From a virus: a stretch of DNA of 37,641 bases. Made by a program: the position numbers and the translations under genes. The stretch spans positions 1 through 37,641 of IMG/VR virus record IMGVR_UViG_3300042868_006295; one strand, given 5' to 3'. Below the pieces are notes generated by a model. That model did not search any database, was not told the DNA's origin, and was given only the letters and a program-made list of their open reading frames with translations. Shown here piece by piece: positions 14,368 to 19,936 of the stretch. Numbering within the stretch: position 1 is the stretch's first letter; each line of letters starts with the position of its first letter.

Positions 14368-15153
14368 ATGAATATCACGATTCCAAAGAAAATCGAGAGC
14401 ATAAATGTTGCCTCTTTAATTCCTTATGCTGCAAACAGCCGCACCCATAGCGATGCGCAAGTTGCTCAAATAGCGTCTTCAATCCGAGAGTTCGGGTTTA
14501 CCAATCCCGTTTTGATCGACGGGGAGAACGGAATCATTGCCGGGCATGGGCGACTTCTGGCCGCTCGCAAGTTGGAAATGCAAACCGTGCCGTGCCTTCG
14601 GCTGGGACATCTGAGCGAAAGCCAACGCCGCGCTTATGTCATCGCCGACAACAAGTTGGCACTAAATGCAGGATGGGACGAGTCGATGCTAAAGGCGGAA
14701 CTGGACAGGTTGACGGCGGACGGGTTCGATATCGAGCTTACGGGATTCGATGCCGGCGAAATTGATGCGTTCGGAACAGGGGAGAGAACCGGGGACGCTT
14801 ACACCAGAAAAATCGAAGCCCCTAAATACGAGCCAAAGGGAACAAAGCCGGAAGTCGCGGAGCTTTATGATGAGAAAAAAACAAGGGCGATAATGGAAAA
14901 GATCGAAGTAGCCAAAATCGAACCTGCCTTAAAATCCTTCCTGATCGCGGCGGCTCATCGGCACACCATATTCGACTTTGAAAACATCGCCGAGTTCTAC
15001 GCCCATTCGGATCCGCTCGTTCAAGACCTGATGGAAGATTCGGCCCTGGTAATCGTAGACTTCGATAAGGCAATCGAAAAAGGGTTCGTGGTTTTCAGCA
15101 ATCACATCGCCGAGATGTTCGACAAGGACAACCCCGCCCATGATGAAGAATAA
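14368..15153 (+). CDS. ParB-like N-terminal domain protein of a DNA-modification cassette
   Basis: A 261-residue protein. Residues 5-130 form a ParB/sulfiredoxin-type domain: L-I-P-Y-A-A-N-S-R-T-H-S, I-R-E-F-G-F-T-N-P-V-L-I-D, the G-H-G-R nucleotide-binding box at 59-62, and Y-V-I-A-D-N-K-L-A-L-N-A-G-W-D near 92-106. In phages this domain is usually fused to a DNA methylase. Here the methylase part is absent and residues 150-261 form a different helical domain (L-K-S-F-L-I-A-A-A-H-R-H, D-P-L-V-Q-D-L-M-E-D-S-A-L-V-I-V-D-F-D-K). It overlaps the next gene by 14 bases, so the pair probably acts in one pathway. Confidence 0.8.
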   Translation: MNITIPKKIESINVASLIPYAANSRTHSDAQVAQIASSIREFGFTNPVLIDGENGIIAGHGRLLAARKLEMQTVPCLRLGHLSESQRRAYVIADNKLALNAGWDESMLKAELDRLTADGFDIELTGFDAGEIDAFGTGERTGDAYTRKIEAPKYEPKGTKPEVAELYDEKKTRAIMEKIEVAKIEPALKSFLIAAAHRHTIFDFENIAEFYAHSDPLVQDLMEDSALVIVDFDKAIEKGFVVFSNHIAEMFDKDNPAHDEE

Positions 15154-16006
15154 AAACTTCGTCGCCATCATTATGACGCACGGGCGACCTGATCGGGTCC
15201 ATACCGCTCGCGCCTTGAAGCGGCAAGGCTACACTGGTCGAGTCATCATCCTGATCGACAACGAAGACAAAAGCCGGGTCGAATATGAAAAGCGGTTTAA
15301 AGGACAGGTGCACGTCTTCGACAAAAAAGGAATCTCAGACACCTTTGATGAGGGCGACAACTTCGGAGACCGGAGGGCCATCGTTTACGCTCGAAACGCA
15401 TGCTTTGAAGTAGCGAAAGAAGTGGGCGCAGAGTGGTTCATCGAGCTGGATGACGATTACCAAGATTTTCGGTATCGAGCGGATGGGAAACTTCAATTTT
15501 GCGATAAAACAAATATCTCAAATCTGGATGGGGTGTTCGATGCGATGGTGGATTTTCTCAAAGTGAGCAAGGCGGCAACTATTGCGATGGCGCAGAACGG
15601 GGATTTCATCGGCGGAAAAAATGGGTCGATGGCGAAGAAGTTAAAACTAAGGCGAAAGGCAATGAACACATTCGTATTTAATACCGCTTGCGATTTTCGG
15701 TTTTTCGGCAGGATCAACGAAGACGTAAATTCCTACACGTGCGCAGGCAGGCGCGGGGTTTTATTTTTGACCGTTCCCAATATCGGAATCTGCCAGAAGC
15801 AAACGCAAGCCAACTCAGGCGGAATGACCGAGCTTTATTTGGAATCTGGCACATACGTTAAATCATTCTACTCCGTCATGTATGCGCCGAGCTGTGTAAA
15901 GGTCGCTGATATGGGTCCGGTTTATCGGAGGATGCACCACCGCATAAAATGGAGAAACGCAGTTCCGTGCATCGTCGGTGAAGAACTCAGAAAGACACGA
16001 CCATGA
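15140..16006 (+). CDS. TET-associated-type DNA base glycosyltransferase (probable)
   Basis: A 288-residue protein with a GT-A-like fold. The start F-V-A-I-I-M-T-H-G-R-P-D-R-V-H-T is followed by V-I-I-L-I-D-N-E-D, Y-A-R-N-A-C-F and E-L-D-D-D-Y-Q-D-F-R. The triple-Asp segment is the expected metal and nucleotide-sugar site. Later come A-Q-N-G-D-F-I-G-G-K-N-G-S, G-R-I-N-E-D-V-N and K-Q-T-Q-A-N-S-G-G-M-T. I recall this pattern from phage proteins called TET-associated glycosyltransferases (TAGT), which decorate oxidised 5-methylcytosine; the family call is from memory. A cytosine methyltransferase lies nearby, but no TET-like oxygenase is visible in the window. Confidence 0.7.
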   Translation: MMKNKNFVAIIMTHGRPDRVHTARALKRQGYTGRVIILIDNEDKSRVEYEKRFKGQVHVFDKKGISDTFDEGDNFGDRRAIVYARNACFEVAKEVGAEWFIELDDDYQDFRYRADGKLQFCDKTNISNLDGVFDAMVDFLKVSKAATIAMAQNGDFIGGKNGSMAKKLKLRRKAMNTFVFNTACDFRFFGRINEDVNSYTCAGRRGVLFLTVPNIGICQKQTQANSGGMTELYLESGTYVKSFYSVMYAPSCVKVADMGPVYRRMHHRIKWRNAVPCIVGEELRKTRP

Positions 16007-16713
16007 AAACCGAAGAGCCAGCAAAAAACTTAGCGCAAAAAATTCGTGATGCTGAATTTAAAAACATCCTGCAAAAGCTGAAGGATGGAAAAACCCTAAC
16101 GGCGCGAGAGTCAAAACTTGCGTATGAACTTGCGGAAAGAAACGGAGAAGCTGAAGAAAGCGAAGGGCGATATTCCAACGCTGGAGTTGATGAGGTCGCA
16201 GAGCTGTTCGGAGTCACCCCGGCAAGAGTCCATCAACTCGTTGCCGATGCCGTTGTAATACGGACAAGTCGCGGAGCGTATGACCTCTGGCAATCGGCGC
16301 ACAATTACATTCGTTTTCTGCGAACTCGTAAAGCAAATCAATGGGAGAACAATGAATCCGGCGACTACGAGGTGCAACGAACCAGAGTTTACAAAGCCCG
16401 CGCCGAAATCCTCGAAGCGCAATCGATGGCGATGCGGGGAGAACTCCATGATGGCGCTTGCATTGCCGAGGTGATGGGTGAGGGGCTGGCCAACATCCGG
16501 GCAAAGCTCTTGGCAATCCCAACCACGGCAGGCCCTCGCGTGGCAGACGAGACAGACCCAAACAAATGCGCGGCCCTCATCGAGACCCTACTGCATGAGG
16601 CGATGGCGGAATGCTCAAAATACAACGGACGGGAGATTCTGAACCGCTATCTCAAACGGAGCGAGGCGAAGCCGGAAGAGTCTGAAGAGGCCGGCGAAGG
16701 TTGGGAGACATGA
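16003..16713 (+). CDS. terS: Terminase small subunit (Nu1-like)
   Basis: A 236-residue DNA-packaging recognition protein. A winged helix-turn-helix (V-D-E-V-A-E-L-F-G-V-T-P-A-R-V-H-Q-L-V, about residues 62-80) would bind the packaging start site. A Y-x-x-x-R-A-E-I-L-E-A-Q segment near 125-140 begins the helical oligomerisation part. A-N-I-R-A-K-L-L-A-I-P near 165 is typical of phage Nu1-like small terminases. It is separated from the large subunit by the methyltransferase gene, an unusual insertion. It starts in an ATGA overlap with the glycosyltransferase gene and ends in one with the methyltransferase gene. Confidence 0.82.
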   Translation: MKTEEPAKNLAQKIRDAEFKNILQKLKDGKTLTARESKLAYELAERNGEAEESEGRYSNAGVDEVAELFGVTPARVHQLVADAVVIRTSRGAYDLWQSAHNYIRFLRTRKANQWENNESGDYEVQRTRVYKARAEILEAQSMAMRGELHDGACIAEVMGEGLANIRAKLLAIPTTAGPRVADETDPNKCAALIETLLHEAMAECSKYNGREILNRYLKRSEAKPEESEEAGEGWET

Positions 16714-18017
16714 TCGATAACAAAAAGACAAACAATGTGGATACTACCAAAACAATTACACACCTCGGACTTTGTGCCGGATACGGCGGCATTGAGCTTG
16801 GACTCCACCGAGTTATCCGAAATCTGCGCACGGTCGCTCTTTGTGAGGTCGAAGCCTTCTGCTGCGCGAATTTGGTCGCAAAAATGGAAGCGGGACTCAT
16901 GGACGCAGCACCTATCTGGACGAATCTTAAATCCTTCCCATGGGCAGAGTTTCGTGACCGCGTGGACATCCTCACTGGGGGGTATCCCTGCCAACCATTC
17001 TCCGCAGCCGGAAAGCGACTCGGCACAGAAGACCCTCGCCACCTCTGGCCATTTATCGCAGACGGAATTCGGATTCTGCGACCCAAGCTCTGCTTCTTTG
17101 AGAATGTCGAAGGACACATCAGCCTCGGACTCCGAGAGGTCATTGGAGAATTGGAATCAATCGGTTATAAAAGCTCGTGGGGAATATTCTCGGCGGCTGA
17201 AGTCGGCGCACCTCACCAACGCAAGCGGGTGTTTATCTTGGCCTACGATCAGAGCCAGCGAATACAAGGACACGGGGCCGATTGGCTCCAAGAGTCACGA
17301 CCACATGCTGGGCAAGGGCTACCTCTGCGCGGTGGTGACGCAGGATGCTTGGCAAACTCCAACGACCAACATGGACATGGTGAGGAGCGAGGAGGGAGTC
17401 CAGAAGAGGATCGCATTTCGAGCGAGCATCGGGAGGAAGAGCATTCCAGACGGGAACTTAGGCGAGCAGATGCAGCGCCTGCATGGCCTTCCCGCCCCGG
17501 CGAACCCCAGCACGGATGGGAGCCGCCAAGGGTTGTGGCGAACCCCGTCATCGTCGGACGGCGAGGGCGGTGTGATGGAGATGCGGGAGGGCTGTGCGGG
17601 GAAATACAAACTGCGGGATCATGTGGTGGCGGAAGAGAAGATGTGGCGAACCCCGTCCGTAGCAGAGGAGAAGAACCAGAACACCTCAACGCAAATCTAC
17701 CTTCAGAACCAAGTGGGGGCGACTCCAAAGGCTTGGGCAACGCCGATCATGGGCGACTCGCATCTGGCATCGACGCCGGAAGTGGCACAGAAGCGGATCG
17801 AGGAGGGCAAAGTGACATTGAGCAGGCAGAACCCCGGCAAGCTCAACCCTCGCTGGGTCGAGACGCTGATGGGTCTGCCGGTGGGCTGGGTTATGCCGAG
17901 CTGTGCGTCTCCTGTGACAATCGAACCGACGAACTACGACTGCTCGGTAACGGAGTCGTGCCTGCCACAGCCGAGCGAGCTTTTAGAATCCTGATGGAAG
18001 AGATCATTTCAGCATGA
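16710..18017 (+). CDS. DNA cytosine-C5 methyltransferase (Dcm-like)
   Basis: A 435-residue enzyme that transfers methyl from S-adenosylmethionine to cytosine C5 in DNA. Motif I is L-G-L-C-A-G-Y-G-G (19-27), the catalytic motif IV G-G-Y-P-C-Q-P-F (90-97; Cys94), motif VI E-N-V (131-133), motif VIII Q-R-K-R (170-173), and motif X L-L-G-N-G-V-V-P (411-418). The stretch 185-400, where the target recognition domain should lie, is low in complexity with repeated A-N-S/A-N-P/G-N-A-D/G-Y-A units. It is overprinted by a second long frame at 16735-17994. I start at ATG 16710 (ATGA overlap); TTG 16701 is possible. Confidence 0.9.
   Translation: MIDNKKTNNVDTTKTITHLGLCAGYGGIELGLHRVIRNLRTVALCEVEAFCCANLVAKMEAGLMDAAPIWTNLKSFPWAEFRDRVDILTGGYPCQPFSAAGKRLGTEDPRHLWPFIADGIRILRPKLCFFENVEGHISLGLREVIGELESIGYKSSWGIFSAAEVGAPHQRKRVFILAYDQSQRIQGHGADWLQESRPHAGQGLPLRGGDAGCLANSNDQHGHGEERGGSPEEDRISSEHREEEHSRRELRRADAAPAWPSRPGEPQHGWEPPRVVANPVIVGRRGRCDGDAGGLCGEIQTAGSCGGGREDVANPVRSRGEEPEHLNANLPSEPSGGDSKGLGNADHGRLASGIDAGSGTEADRGGQSDIEQAEPRQAQPSLGRDADGSAGGLGYAELCVSCDNRTDELRLLGNGVVPATAERAFRILMEEIISA
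16735..17994 (+). CDS. Overprinted protein with W-x-T-P repeats inside the methyltransferase gene
   Basis: A 419-residue frame, ATG 16735 to TGA 17994, lies entirely within the methyltransferase gene in the +1 frame. The start M-W-I-L-P-K-Q-L-H-T-S and the segment S-Q-K-W-K-R-D-S-W-T-Q-H-L-S-G-R are compositionally normal. The second half has recurring units W-P-T-I, W-Q-T-P, W-R-T-P (twice) and W-A-T-P, each followed by a polar stretch. The end is L-N-P-R-W-V-E-T-L-M-G-L-P-V-G-W. From memory, proteins with W-P-T-P repeats and this C-terminal signature occur in many phages. Both frames are likely translated. The function is unknown. Confidence 0.65.
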   Translation: MWILPKQLHTSDFVPDTAALSLDSTELSEICARSLFVRSKPSAARIWSQKWKRDSWTQHLSGRILNPSHGQSFVTAWTSSLGGIPANHSPQPESDSAQKTLATSGHLSQTEFGFCDPSSASLRMSKDTSASDSERSLENWNQSVIKARGEYSRRLKSAHLTNASGCLSWPTIRASEYKDTGPIGSKSHDHMLGKGYLCAVVTQDAWQTPTTNMDMVRSEEGVQKRIAFRASIGRKSIPDGNLGEQMQRLHGLPAPANPSTDGSRQGLWRTPSSSDGEGGVMEMREGCAGKYKLRDHVVAEEKMWRTPSVAEEKNQNTSTQIYLQNQVGATPKAWATPIMGDSHLASTPEVAQKRIEEGKVTLSRQNPGKLNPRWVETLMGLPVGWVMPSCASPVTIEPTNYDCSVTESCLPQPSELLES

Positions 18018-19936
18018 CGCCCCAACAACTCGACCGCGCCAGCGACCTCATCGCGGCATGGTCGGCCATCATTTCACCGCCTCCAAAATGGACGATCAGC
18101 GAATGGGCAGACCACCGGCGCAAACTCTCCGGCGAGGCGGCAGCGGAGAAAGGCCAGTGGCGAACAAACCGCGCCGAATACCAGCGAGGCATTATGGACG
18201 CCGTAGCCGATCCGACCATTGAGCAGGTTGTCGTCATGTCATCGGCACAGGTGGGAAAAACCGAGGTGCTTCTGAACTGCATCGGCTACTATGTTGATTT
18301 CGACCCCTCGCCCCTCATGCTCGTCCAACCCGACGAGGCTATGGCAGAGACATTCAGCAAGGACCGCCTCGCGCCTATGTTCCGAGACTCGCCCAGCCTC
18401 CGCTCCAAGGTGCGACCGGCGAAGACCCGCGACAGCGGAAACACGATCCTCCACAAAAGATTCCCCGGCGGGCATGTCACGCTGGTCGGAGCCAACGCCC
18501 CCAGCGGCCTCGCCTCTCGCCCGATCCGCATCCTCCTGCTTGACGAGGTAGACCGCTACCCCGCAAGTGCCGGGAGCGAGGGCGATCCGGTGAACCTCGC
18601 CATTGCCCGAACAAAGAACTTTTGGAACAGAAGAATCGTGATGGTCAGCACCCCGACCGTCAAAGGTCTCTCTCGCATCGAACGCGCTTTTGAGCTTTCC
18701 GACCAGCGGCATTTCCTTGTGCCGTGTCCGCATTGCCAACACGAGCACCCGCTGCGGTGGGGCAATGTCGTATGGCAGGACGGACGCCGCGACCTTGCAA
18801 CCCTCCGGTGTCCCGCCTGCAACGGCACGATCACCAACGCGCAGAAAAACCAAGCGGTCTCCCGTGGTCGGTGGCAGGCCAGCGCCGGACCCAGCCGGAT
18901 CGCAGGCTTTCACTTGAACGAACTCTATTCCCCCTGGCGAAGCATAGCAGACATCGCCATCGAGCATGGGCGTGCCAAAGACGACCCCTCAACTTTGCAA
19001 GTATGGATCAACACCAGCCTCGGCGAAACATGGGAAGAAGGAGGCGAACGCATCAGCGAGCATGCCCTCATCGAGCGATGCGAACCCTACCCGCAGGCAG
19101 ATGTCCCCGCCCGTGGGTTGATCCTGACGGCTGGCGTCGATACTCAGCAAGACCGGCTCGAGGTTGAAGTGGTCGCATGGGCAGGCGGCGAAGAAAGCTG
19201 GAGCGTTGCCTATCATGTCATTCTCGGAGACCCCGACATTCCCGAAGGCACAGAAGGAAGCCCGTGGACGCACCTCACCGACTACCTTCGCAAACGCTGG
19301 ACATCCGAGGCAGGCGGCGAAATGGTCATCGAAACCACCTGCATCGATACCGGCGGCAGCAACACGCAGGCCGTTTACGGCTATGTGAAGCGGCACAAGG
19401 GAGACAGAGTTTACGGCGTGAAAGGACAAGGCGGACCCGGCTTGCCCATCGTCGGCAACCCCGCCCGCCGCAGGGCAGGAAAAAAAACCACGCGCCCCAT
19501 CGATGTCTACATTGTGGGAGTCGATTCCGCGAAATCCATAGTTTACAAGAGACTGCGCATCACGGAACCCGGCTCTGGATATTGCCACTTCCCGCAAGGG
19601 CGCAGCGCCGAGTATTTCAGAGGGTTGACCGCAGAAAAGGCCGTGACGAAATTCGTAAAGGGATTCCCCCGGATGGAGTGGCACAAAACATCCGGCGCAC
19701 GCAACGAACCGCTCGACTGCCGGGTTTACGCATTCGCCGCGCTCGTCCTTCGCGCCCCGCAGTTTGACAAGCTCGCCCTACGGAGGCGGCAGACCATGCC
19801 CACGCCCAAGCCCGCCGAGGTCGAGACGCCCCAGCCAACGGAACGCCCCGCAGAAGACACCCCCAGACCGGATGCCAACAATGCCGCGAAACGCAAGCGC
19901 ACCACGCGCAGGGCGTCCTTCGTGCATCAATGGTGA
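18014..19936 (+). CDS. terL: Terminase large subunit (lambda GpA-like)
   Basis: A 640-residue DNA-packaging motor and nuclease of the GpA family, the same length class as lambda gpA (641). The ATPase domain has Walker A S-S-A-Q-V-G-K-T (76-83) and Walker B I-L-L-L-D-E-V-D (173-180). The C-terminal nuclease begins near residue 370 with T-A-G-V-D-T-Q-Q-D. Four Cys at C-P-H-C and C-P-A-C (about 236-276) form a zinc finger, as in this family. The gene starts in a 4-base overlap with the methyltransferase. Its C-terminal tail is low-complexity and contains the first late-promoter motif (19840-19860). Confidence 0.95.
   Translation: MTPQQLDRASDLIAAWSAIISPPPKWTISEWADHRRKLSGEAAAEKGQWRTNRAEYQRGIMDAVADPTIEQVVVMSSAQVGKTEVLLNCIGYYVDFDPSPLMLVQPDEAMAETFSKDRLAPMFRDSPSLRSKVRPAKTRDSGNTILHKRFPGGHVTLVGANAPSGLASRPIRILLLDEVDRYPASAGSEGDPVNLAIARTKNFWNRRIVMVSTPTVKGLSRIERAFELSDQRHFLVPCPHCQHEHPLRWGNVVWQDGRRDLATLRCPACNGTITNAQKNQAVSRGRWQASAGPSRIAGFHLNELYSPWRSIADIAIEHGRAKDDPSTLQVWINTSLGETWEEGGERISEHALIERCEPYPQADVPARGLILTAGVDTQQDRLEVEVVAWAGGEESWSVAYHVILGDPDIPEGTEGSPWTHLTDYLRKRWTSEAGGEMVIETTCIDTGGSNTQAVYGYVKRHKGDRVYGVKGQGGPGLPIVGNPARRRAGKKTTRPIDVYIVGVDSAKSIVYKRLRITEPGSGYCHFPQGRSAEYFRGLTAEKAVTKFVKGFPRMEWHKTSGARNEPLDCRVYAFAALVLRAPQFDKLALRRRQTMPTPKPAEVETPQPTERPAEDTPRPDANNAAKRKRTTRRASFVHQW
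19840..19882 (+). promoter_or_regulatory. Late promoter motif, copy 1 (upstream of connector and portal genes)
   Basis: GGAACGCCCCGCAGAAGACA begins at 19840, inside the 3' end of the large terminase gene. Sixteen bases after AGACA lies CAACAAT, a weaker version of the [C/T]AAAAT box seen in copies 2-4. The next gene starts about 50 bases downstream. Being in coding sequence, this copy is also constrained by the protein (E-R-P-A-E-D-T). Confidence 0.55.

Follow-up and report, generated by a model that had tools for sequence, protein, structure and literature searches.

In the present study, two reading frames on the same strand, both open and overlapping over 1.26 kb, were analyzed in the virus record IMGVR_UViG_3300042868_006295 (the window, i.e. 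the whole stretch of 37,641 nucleotides, or 37.6 kb). Frame 0 (16710-18017, 435 amino acids) encodes a DNA cytosine-5 methyltransferase (C5-MTase), and the +1 frame (16735-17994, 419 amino acids) is a second open frame with an ATG of its own. The dual coding is real, and its best interpretation is a nested two-chain C5-MTase; very few enzymes of this kind are known, and here the arrangement recurs in phages and prophages. Judging from the sequences, we consider it likely that the locus specifies one heterodimeric C5-MTase whose two chains are encoded by the same DNA in different frames. Frame 0 would give alpha, probably the catalytic chain, and the +1 frame would give beta, probably the target-recognition chain, with motif IX.

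An earlier note on this DNA had described the two overlapping frames, the separate ATG and five W-x-T-P-type repeats, all of which are present. The note had also held that frame 0 contains all main C5-MTase motifs and is a complete MTase overprinted by a separate, uncharacterised protein, and this part requires revision. Alpha contains motifs I-VIII with the catalytic PC in motif IV, but the PF00145 match (5e-33) is confined to alpha residues 19-186, corresponding to positions 4-168 of the 324 in the profile and thus to the first half only, and no motif IX was recognised in frame 0 of the window, where motif X is present. In other words, IX, the target-recognition domain (TRD) and X were not found together on the chain of I-VIII, the IX-like sequence lying in the +1 frame and X in frame 0. 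Between motifs VIII and X, constraint on frame 0 is weak, and the variable region and motif IX seem to come from the +1 frame instead. The features are as follows, with motifs I, IV and VI given their customary names.

16737-18017, + strand: alpha, probable catalytic C5-MTase chain, frame 0 (PF00145, 5e-33; phrog_363, 7e-56)
16735-17994, + strand: beta, second chain, +1 frame, 419 amino acids (phrog_1008, 7e-21; stop and substitution evidence)
16735-16739, + strand: putative start codons overlapping as ATGTG, beta ATG and alpha GTG (start comparison among relatives)
16767-16802, + strand: alpha motif I, GLCAGYGGIELG (sequence pattern)
16977-17003, + strand: alpha motif IV, GGYPCQPFS, with the catalytic Cys (sequence pattern)
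17097-17117, + strand: alpha motif VI, FENVEGH (sequence pattern)
17214-17243, + strand: alpha motif VIII, HQRKRVFILA (sequence pattern)
17239-17349, + strand: beta WxTP module 1, WPTIRASE... (unit cutting)
17350-17535, + strand: beta WxTP module 2, WQTPTTNM... (unit cutting)
17536-17643, + strand: beta WxTP module 3, WRTPSSSDGEGG..., of a module family of 11 betas (unit cutting and comparison)
17644-17733, + strand: beta WxTP module 4, WRTPSVAEEKNQ..., of a module family of 8 betas (unit cutting and comparison)
17734-17841, + strand: beta WxTP module 5, WATPIMGD... (unit cutting)
17842-17889, + strand: beta motif IX-like sequence, LNPRWVETLMGLPVGW (conservation among 106 aligned betas)
17934-17984, + strand: alpha motif X, LRLLGNGVVPATAERAF, frame 0 (sequence pattern and substitution map)

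Selection on both reading frames

Relatives were gathered by the frame-0 protein, by the +1 protein and by the DNA pattern LNPxWVExLMGxP in viral contigs and GTDB genomes. The pattern demands LNPxWVE, and all locus counts given here (L numbers denote individual loci) are counts among the matches listed, i.e. a sample. The motif loci sampled numbered at least 238 (120 viral and 118 genomic); 278 MTase open reading frame matches were reduced to 238 distinct ones, and the 174 with all three regular-expression motifs were used for the stop and substitution tests.

First, stop codons are missing from the +1 frame. Expected numbers were obtained from within-gene synonymous-codon shuffles, which control for amino acids and codon usage. 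In 58 non-redundant MTases, chosen by frame 0 alone from the best 80 of at least 597 relatives of P0001, no +1 stop was observed in 21,174 codons (approximately 332 expected), whereas the +2 frame showed no shortage of stops (973, against an expected 916). The final 25 codons ahead of motif X are omitted from this count, because some beta frames end there. Over motifs IV-VIII of the 174 genes, four +1 stops were seen against 313 expected, and all four are in L122. Relatives chosen via the +1 frame point in the same direction but are biased by that selection; in the pattern-chosen set, +1 stops were hardly depleted over I-IV, where beta has often not begun (192 seen, 212 expected), and were few over IV-VIII (4 against 157) and beyond VIII (3 against 123).

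Second, substitutions mainly follow the codon positions of the +1 frame in the part of the gene where frame 0 is weakly constrained. In nucleotide alignments of closer pairs, which were filtered by local identity and are mutually non-independent, change was fastest at frame-0 position 3 over motifs I-VIII and at frame-0 position 1, i.e. +1 position 3, between VIII and IX. In the latter part, change at frame-0 positions 1-3 was 0.099, 0.024 and 0.017 in pairs of 90-99% identity and 0.165, 0.048 and 0.046 in pairs of 80-90% identity; in the closer set, changes nonsynonymous in frame 0 and synonymous in +1 reached 0.138, compared with 0.023 for the reverse and 0.016 for changes nonsynonymous in both. 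A previous codon-position test on protein-aligned distant pairs had shown no clear signal after VIII, because the repeats misalign. On a five-codon map, selection moves to +1 approximately ten codons past the start of VIII and back approximately ten codons before X; the first bin, which holds roughly the first three codons of beta, is +1-like, the following ten codons are mixed, and some other bins over I-VIII are also mixed. Between the window and its 12 nearest relatives, change at frame-0 positions 1-3 over VIII-IX was 0.132, 0.037 and 0.031, and over I-IV the two frames were equally constrained (0.078 and 0.078, compared with 0.020 for changes altering both).

Third, alpha four-fold sites were compared on either side of beta starts that lie inside alpha. 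Each start was set at the earliest ATG in the open stretch of +1, which may be wrong in single cases. Of these sites, 63.9% differ upstream and 43.0% downstream of the start (228 pairs, 83 genes), with equal amino-acid identity on either side (0.654 and 0.659). The drop was 0.153-0.250 in a bootstrap over genes, and among controls with beta overlapping throughout, one set showed no drop (-0.082 to 0.040) and the other the reverse. The beta part overlapping IV-VIII is constrained, and the stop and substitution patterns together indicate that both frames are under selection. The second frame is thus a real, selected coding frame, as the earlier note had supposed.

It has to be considered whether codon usage or guanine-plus-cytosine (G+C) content could have left the +1 frame open as a mere side effect. 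Long open frames arise frequently by chance in high-G+C genomes, and only six of the 202 loci classed as dual have a gene G+C below 45% and none below 40%, so that low-G+C support for +1 openness is thin, the dual loci being mostly not AT-rich. However, the shuffle test and the substitutions following +1 codon positions refute the by-product reading, the +2 frame is not depleted of stops, and L093 keeps its +1 frame open from approximately motif IV despite low G+C (gene 44.9%, locus 37.8%). The probability left to codon usage or composition is negligible.

Initiation of the two chains

Because the conserved beta tryptophan is encoded by TGG, alpha has an NTG codon (GTG or ATG) at the beta start, and because several relatives have a closed alpha frame just one or two codons further upstream, alpha very probably starts at the NTG codon, which is GTG 16737 in the window; an alternative in-frame ATG stands upstream at 16710. 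The beta ATG lies one to three codons before the conserved W codon in all 78 distinct window-type starts (48 with ATGTGG, 27 with ATGACATGG and three with the ATG nine bases upstream of TGG), and MWILPKQLHT is the majority N-terminal sequence among the 106 aligned betas. In other groups beta begins inside alpha, and a Shine-Dalgarno match of at least five bases was found at 46 of 102 first-ATG starts, compared with 7.9 expected; no clear Shine-Dalgarno sequence precedes 16735 in the window. From the conserved starts and the Shine-Dalgarno enrichment, we infer that beta is initiated independently and not by frameshifting.

The alternative is that ribosomes undergo a programmed +1 frameshift once past motif VIII, so that frame 0 and +1 are fused into one full-length MTase and no separate beta is made. 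The shift of selection to +1 approximately ten codons past the start of VIII would fit such an event, as would the alpha frames of L037, L050 and Gordonia phage Upyo, which stop soon after VIII. However, the openness and constraint of +1 extend upstream of VIII, where a shift at VIII would not require them, Shine-Dalgarno sequences are enriched at internal beta starts, the start and N-terminus of beta are conserved, and loci with X in frame 0 would require a second shift back. We regard a frameshift product as very improbable.

The gene upstream of the locus (16003-16713) has a stop, ending at 16713, that shares the sequence ATGA with the possible alpha ATG at 16710 and lies 21 bases ahead of the ATG of beta. 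This gene may be translationally coupled to the alpha or the beta start.

Modules and the motif IX-like end of beta

Between VIII and IX, beta consists of a row of W-x-T-P units with a median of 37 residues and 1-9 mechanically cut units per beta; the five in the window start at 17239 (WPTI), 17350, 17536, 17644 and 17734. The underlying +1 codons TGG-NNN-ACN-CCN are read in frame 0 as (L/M/V)-(A/G/D/E/V)-(N/D/H/Y)-(A/S/P/T), and the A-N-S/P stretches of alpha thus look shaped by the other frame, as had been proposed. The comparison of modules used 602 of 838 cut units, namely those with the start pattern, a length of 24 residues or more and a known alpha; the 838 include some false units from the N-terminal part of beta. 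Among 18,042 beta pairs with alpha N-halves less than 45% identical, with pairs lacking a 100-residue alpha BLAST alignment counted as below 35% identical, 155 share a unit at least 65% identical, at a differing ordinal position in 118 of these, and 116 of 223 betas take part. For example, unit 4 of L044 and unit 3 of L084 are 89% identical, and their alphas are 33% identical. This sharing of units between enzymes with such distant alpha halves suggests that the WxTP units are swappable target-recognition modules, and exchangeable modular units between VIII and IX are also what is found in a multispecific phage C5-MTase.

The sequence LNPxWVExLMGxPxGW stands near the C-terminus of beta, with L, N, W, V, L and G invariant in the 106 aligned betas. 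Motif IX of M.HhaI was used for comparison, and by pattern and position the sequence would correspond to C5-MTase motif IX. The phrog_1008 family, labelled 'DNA methyltransferase', matches the window beta (7e-21) and four other betas (E-values, E, of 6e-33 to 6e-35); no Pfam or NCBIfam match was obtained for the +1 protein of the window.

Several results weigh against the two-chain reading, in addition to the base composition mentioned above. When a profile of eight natural IX-X segments was compared with 177,635 PDB sequences, the top two were 4onj and 4onq ('DNA methyltransferase', presumably plant C5-MTases), but the match, at LEPDEVEMLLGFP...LGNS, was not significant (E 0.069). Against Pfam, one of five IX-X queries reached PF00145, with an E of 0.037, below the cut-off, and a beta profile had no match among PDB sequences. 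AlphaFold2 models of two betas were poor (predicted local distance difference test, pLDDT, 54.5 and 62.9), and a Foldseek search of the better model against PDB returned nothing at E<=0.001; because of these two results, no TRD fold is shown for beta. The published TRD 'TL' motif P(STCA)PT(ILV)(TASV) occurs in its strict form in one of the 602 modules and as a relaxed pattern in 62. Several five-codon bins within VIII-X are mixed and not clearly +1. Finally, the predicted TRD of the two-polypeptide enzyme M.EcoHK31I is placed on the large chain in the accessible part of PMC3404938, whereas here it is placed on beta.

In the better-resolved part of these models, residues 69-89 of the L352 beta are predicted to form a beta-hairpin, the most confident part (blocks 71-90, pLDDT 83-88); this segment overlaps alpha just before motif VIII.

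Linkage of the frames and spread

Among the 238 loci, 202 have alpha in the -1 frame past IX, ten have alpha interrupted before IX, 18 are ended by a contig edge, seven are rearranged and one is a remnant at the 3' end (L366, with both frames still open). The seven (L356, L325, L122, L028, L022, L038 and L026) stand in another frame relation, five in the same frame and two in frame +1, and look like dual genes rearranged by insertions and deletions. The beta frame continues into X, with alpha ending before IX, in L037, L050, L058, L113, L288, L291 and Gordonia phage Upyo. Six of the ten alpha-interrupted loci have X in the beta frame; in L025, L054 and L298 it remains in the alpha frame, preceded by a stop, and the tenth locus is L093. 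In L122 (G+C 38.4%), I-VIII, IX and X are all in the alpha frame, and the +1 frame keeps WxTP units without IX.

Stand-alone homologues of the second frame, which the earlier note had thought worth seeking, numbered none among the 238 loci, 18 of which are uninformative through their contig edges. This result bears on a second alternative, in which beta has a role apart from the MTase that it overprints, for instance in anti-restriction or regulation, and resembles motif IX by coincidence. Such a protein would account for modules without the strict TL motif and for the lack of a significant fold or family match linking beta to a TRD. On the other hand, beta never stands alone in this sample, in the split relatives the beta frame carries X downstream of its IX-like motif, and alpha is little selected exactly where the TRD and IX belong. 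A separate protein is in our judgement improbable.

The view that the signature occurs in many unrelated phages is borne out by matches in phage records and by the sampled motif loci. A short beta has matches in 151 of 50,697 phage records and the window beta in 59 of them; among 72,556 plasmid records, ten match one beta and seven another; the frames were read in 15 of the matching phage and plasmid records. Record titles of the bacterial loci span several phyla. The Gordonia phage Upyo is one named example, and the +1 frame of coliphage K1ind3 bears the label 'putative Mte8-like protein'. Records of Paenibacillus larvae phages contain, as entered by their submitters, either an 'internal gene' or a second methyltransferase, and in the accessible part of a comparison of 48 such phages (PMC6070908) two DNA-cytosine methyltransferase rows, gp62 and gp63, stand uncommented.

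At L274 (1293-2783, Paenibacillus polymyxa plasmid pAP1), two successive +1 LNPxWVE motifs with stops between them were observed, as if the 3' part of a dual MTase gene had been duplicated.

A proposed two-chain mechanism

Herein, we propose how one heterodimeric enzyme could arise from the two frames. First, each chain would be translated from its own start codon, the two overlapping in the window as ATGTG. Alpha would provide S-adenosylmethionine (AdoMet) binding and catalysis (I-VIII) together with motif X, and its variable region would be a loosely constrained linker. Beta would provide an N-terminal part, the WxTP array in place of the TRD, and motif IX, and the chains would join as one enzyme. 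Each module may read one DNA target, and phages may swap these specificities, probably against host restriction. As for the origin, a frameshift after VIII in an ordinary C5-MTase might have produced AquI-like chains, with a +1 start recruited upstream, and motif X might later have come back into frame 0 in most lineages; L122 either shows that such changes of frame occur or is a decaying copy.

A broader version of this proposal seems to us evenly balanced between holding and failing. There would be a class of nested two-chain C5-MTases across phages, each with a multispecific plug-in array, one DNA target per module, on its alternate-frame chain. Phages would recombine modules within the dual-coded region to alter the host restriction systems that they resist, the opposite frame would serve as a nearly free linker, and ATGTG would set the ratio of the chains.

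Genomic neighbourhood

The gene for the terminase large subunit (GpA, 18014-19936) starts within the end of alpha, with an overlap of four bases. Two genes upstream of the MTase, a TET-associated glycosyltransferase (PF20691, 1.9e-31) is encoded at 15140-16006 and could act on modified cytosine; PF20691 was found in none of 16 relatives tested, and its link to the MTase is thus not conserved there. A search for TET (PF12851) gave no match in the window and none in the 16 relatives, where the control was likewise zero. A scan of 20 other proteins of the window revealed no recognisable restriction enzyme.

Comparison with known systems

To our knowledge, long same-strand overlaps with both frames under selection are thought to be rare in bacteria and their viruses, and here a long dual-coded overlap recurs in 202 of 238 sampled loci, in viral contigs as well as bacterial genomes. 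Few long prokaryotic overlaps are described as fully established in the accessible part of PMC9927249. A literature search of open-licence PMC papers found no title or beginning of an abstract describing the present overlap, the accessible parts of PMC5582158, PMC6456624 and PMC12707154 contain nothing on a two-chain layout, and no description of the modular specificity part was found in this limited search. The families phrog_1008 (beta) and phrog_363 (alpha) are both labelled 'DNA methyltransferase', with no overlap or subunit relation shown. The out-of-frame gene hidden in a phage methylase as the ShiLan HNH element is, as far as the accessible part of PMC11855218 describes it, an inserted endonuclease and a different thing.

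Should the two-chain reading hold, it would account for a family whose members bear no other name than 'DNA methyltransferase' or 'hypothetical'. Phage MTases that are annotated as single, complete genes could then be without part of their enzyme, and the arrays would form a natural repertoire of candidate target-recognition modules. If the annotated frame alone were cloned, with its codons recoded, the enzyme would likely be dead.

Three known systems provide the closest comparisons. The small chain of M.EcoHK31I, of which we take M.EaeI to be an isoschizomer, was reportedly found by Lee, Kam and Shaw in 1995 to be encoded within the large one in another frame, and beta likewise lies in another frame inside alpha. 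The SPR/phi3T group of Bacillus phage C5-MTases studied by Trautner and colleagues is said to carry exchangeable TRD arrays of approximately 40 residues each. The present loci resemble this group in having exchangeable arrays in the variable region of a phage C5-MTase, but differ from these single-chain enzymes in that the modules stand in another frame, on a second chain, and that the strict TL motif is absent. The relatives with X in beta share the motif layout of M.AquI, as far as the accessible literature describes it, but keep the beta frame open through all or most of the catalytic half of alpha, and the alpha of the window, unlike that arrangement, retains X. In the accessible part of PMC3404938, M.EcoHK31I is a two-polypeptide C5-MTase with I-VIII and X on the large chain and only motif IX on the small chain, which gives the two-chain reading a published precedent. 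In motif layout, the window (I-VIII and X on alpha, the IX-like motif on beta) would match this enzyme, with the IX-like motif assigned by pattern, position and the PDB match that was not significant. Unlike M.EcoHK31I, however, beta is nearly as long as alpha in the window and has a WxTP array that seemingly replaces the TRD, the start codons overlap in the window group, and the system occurs in phages and bacterial genomes.

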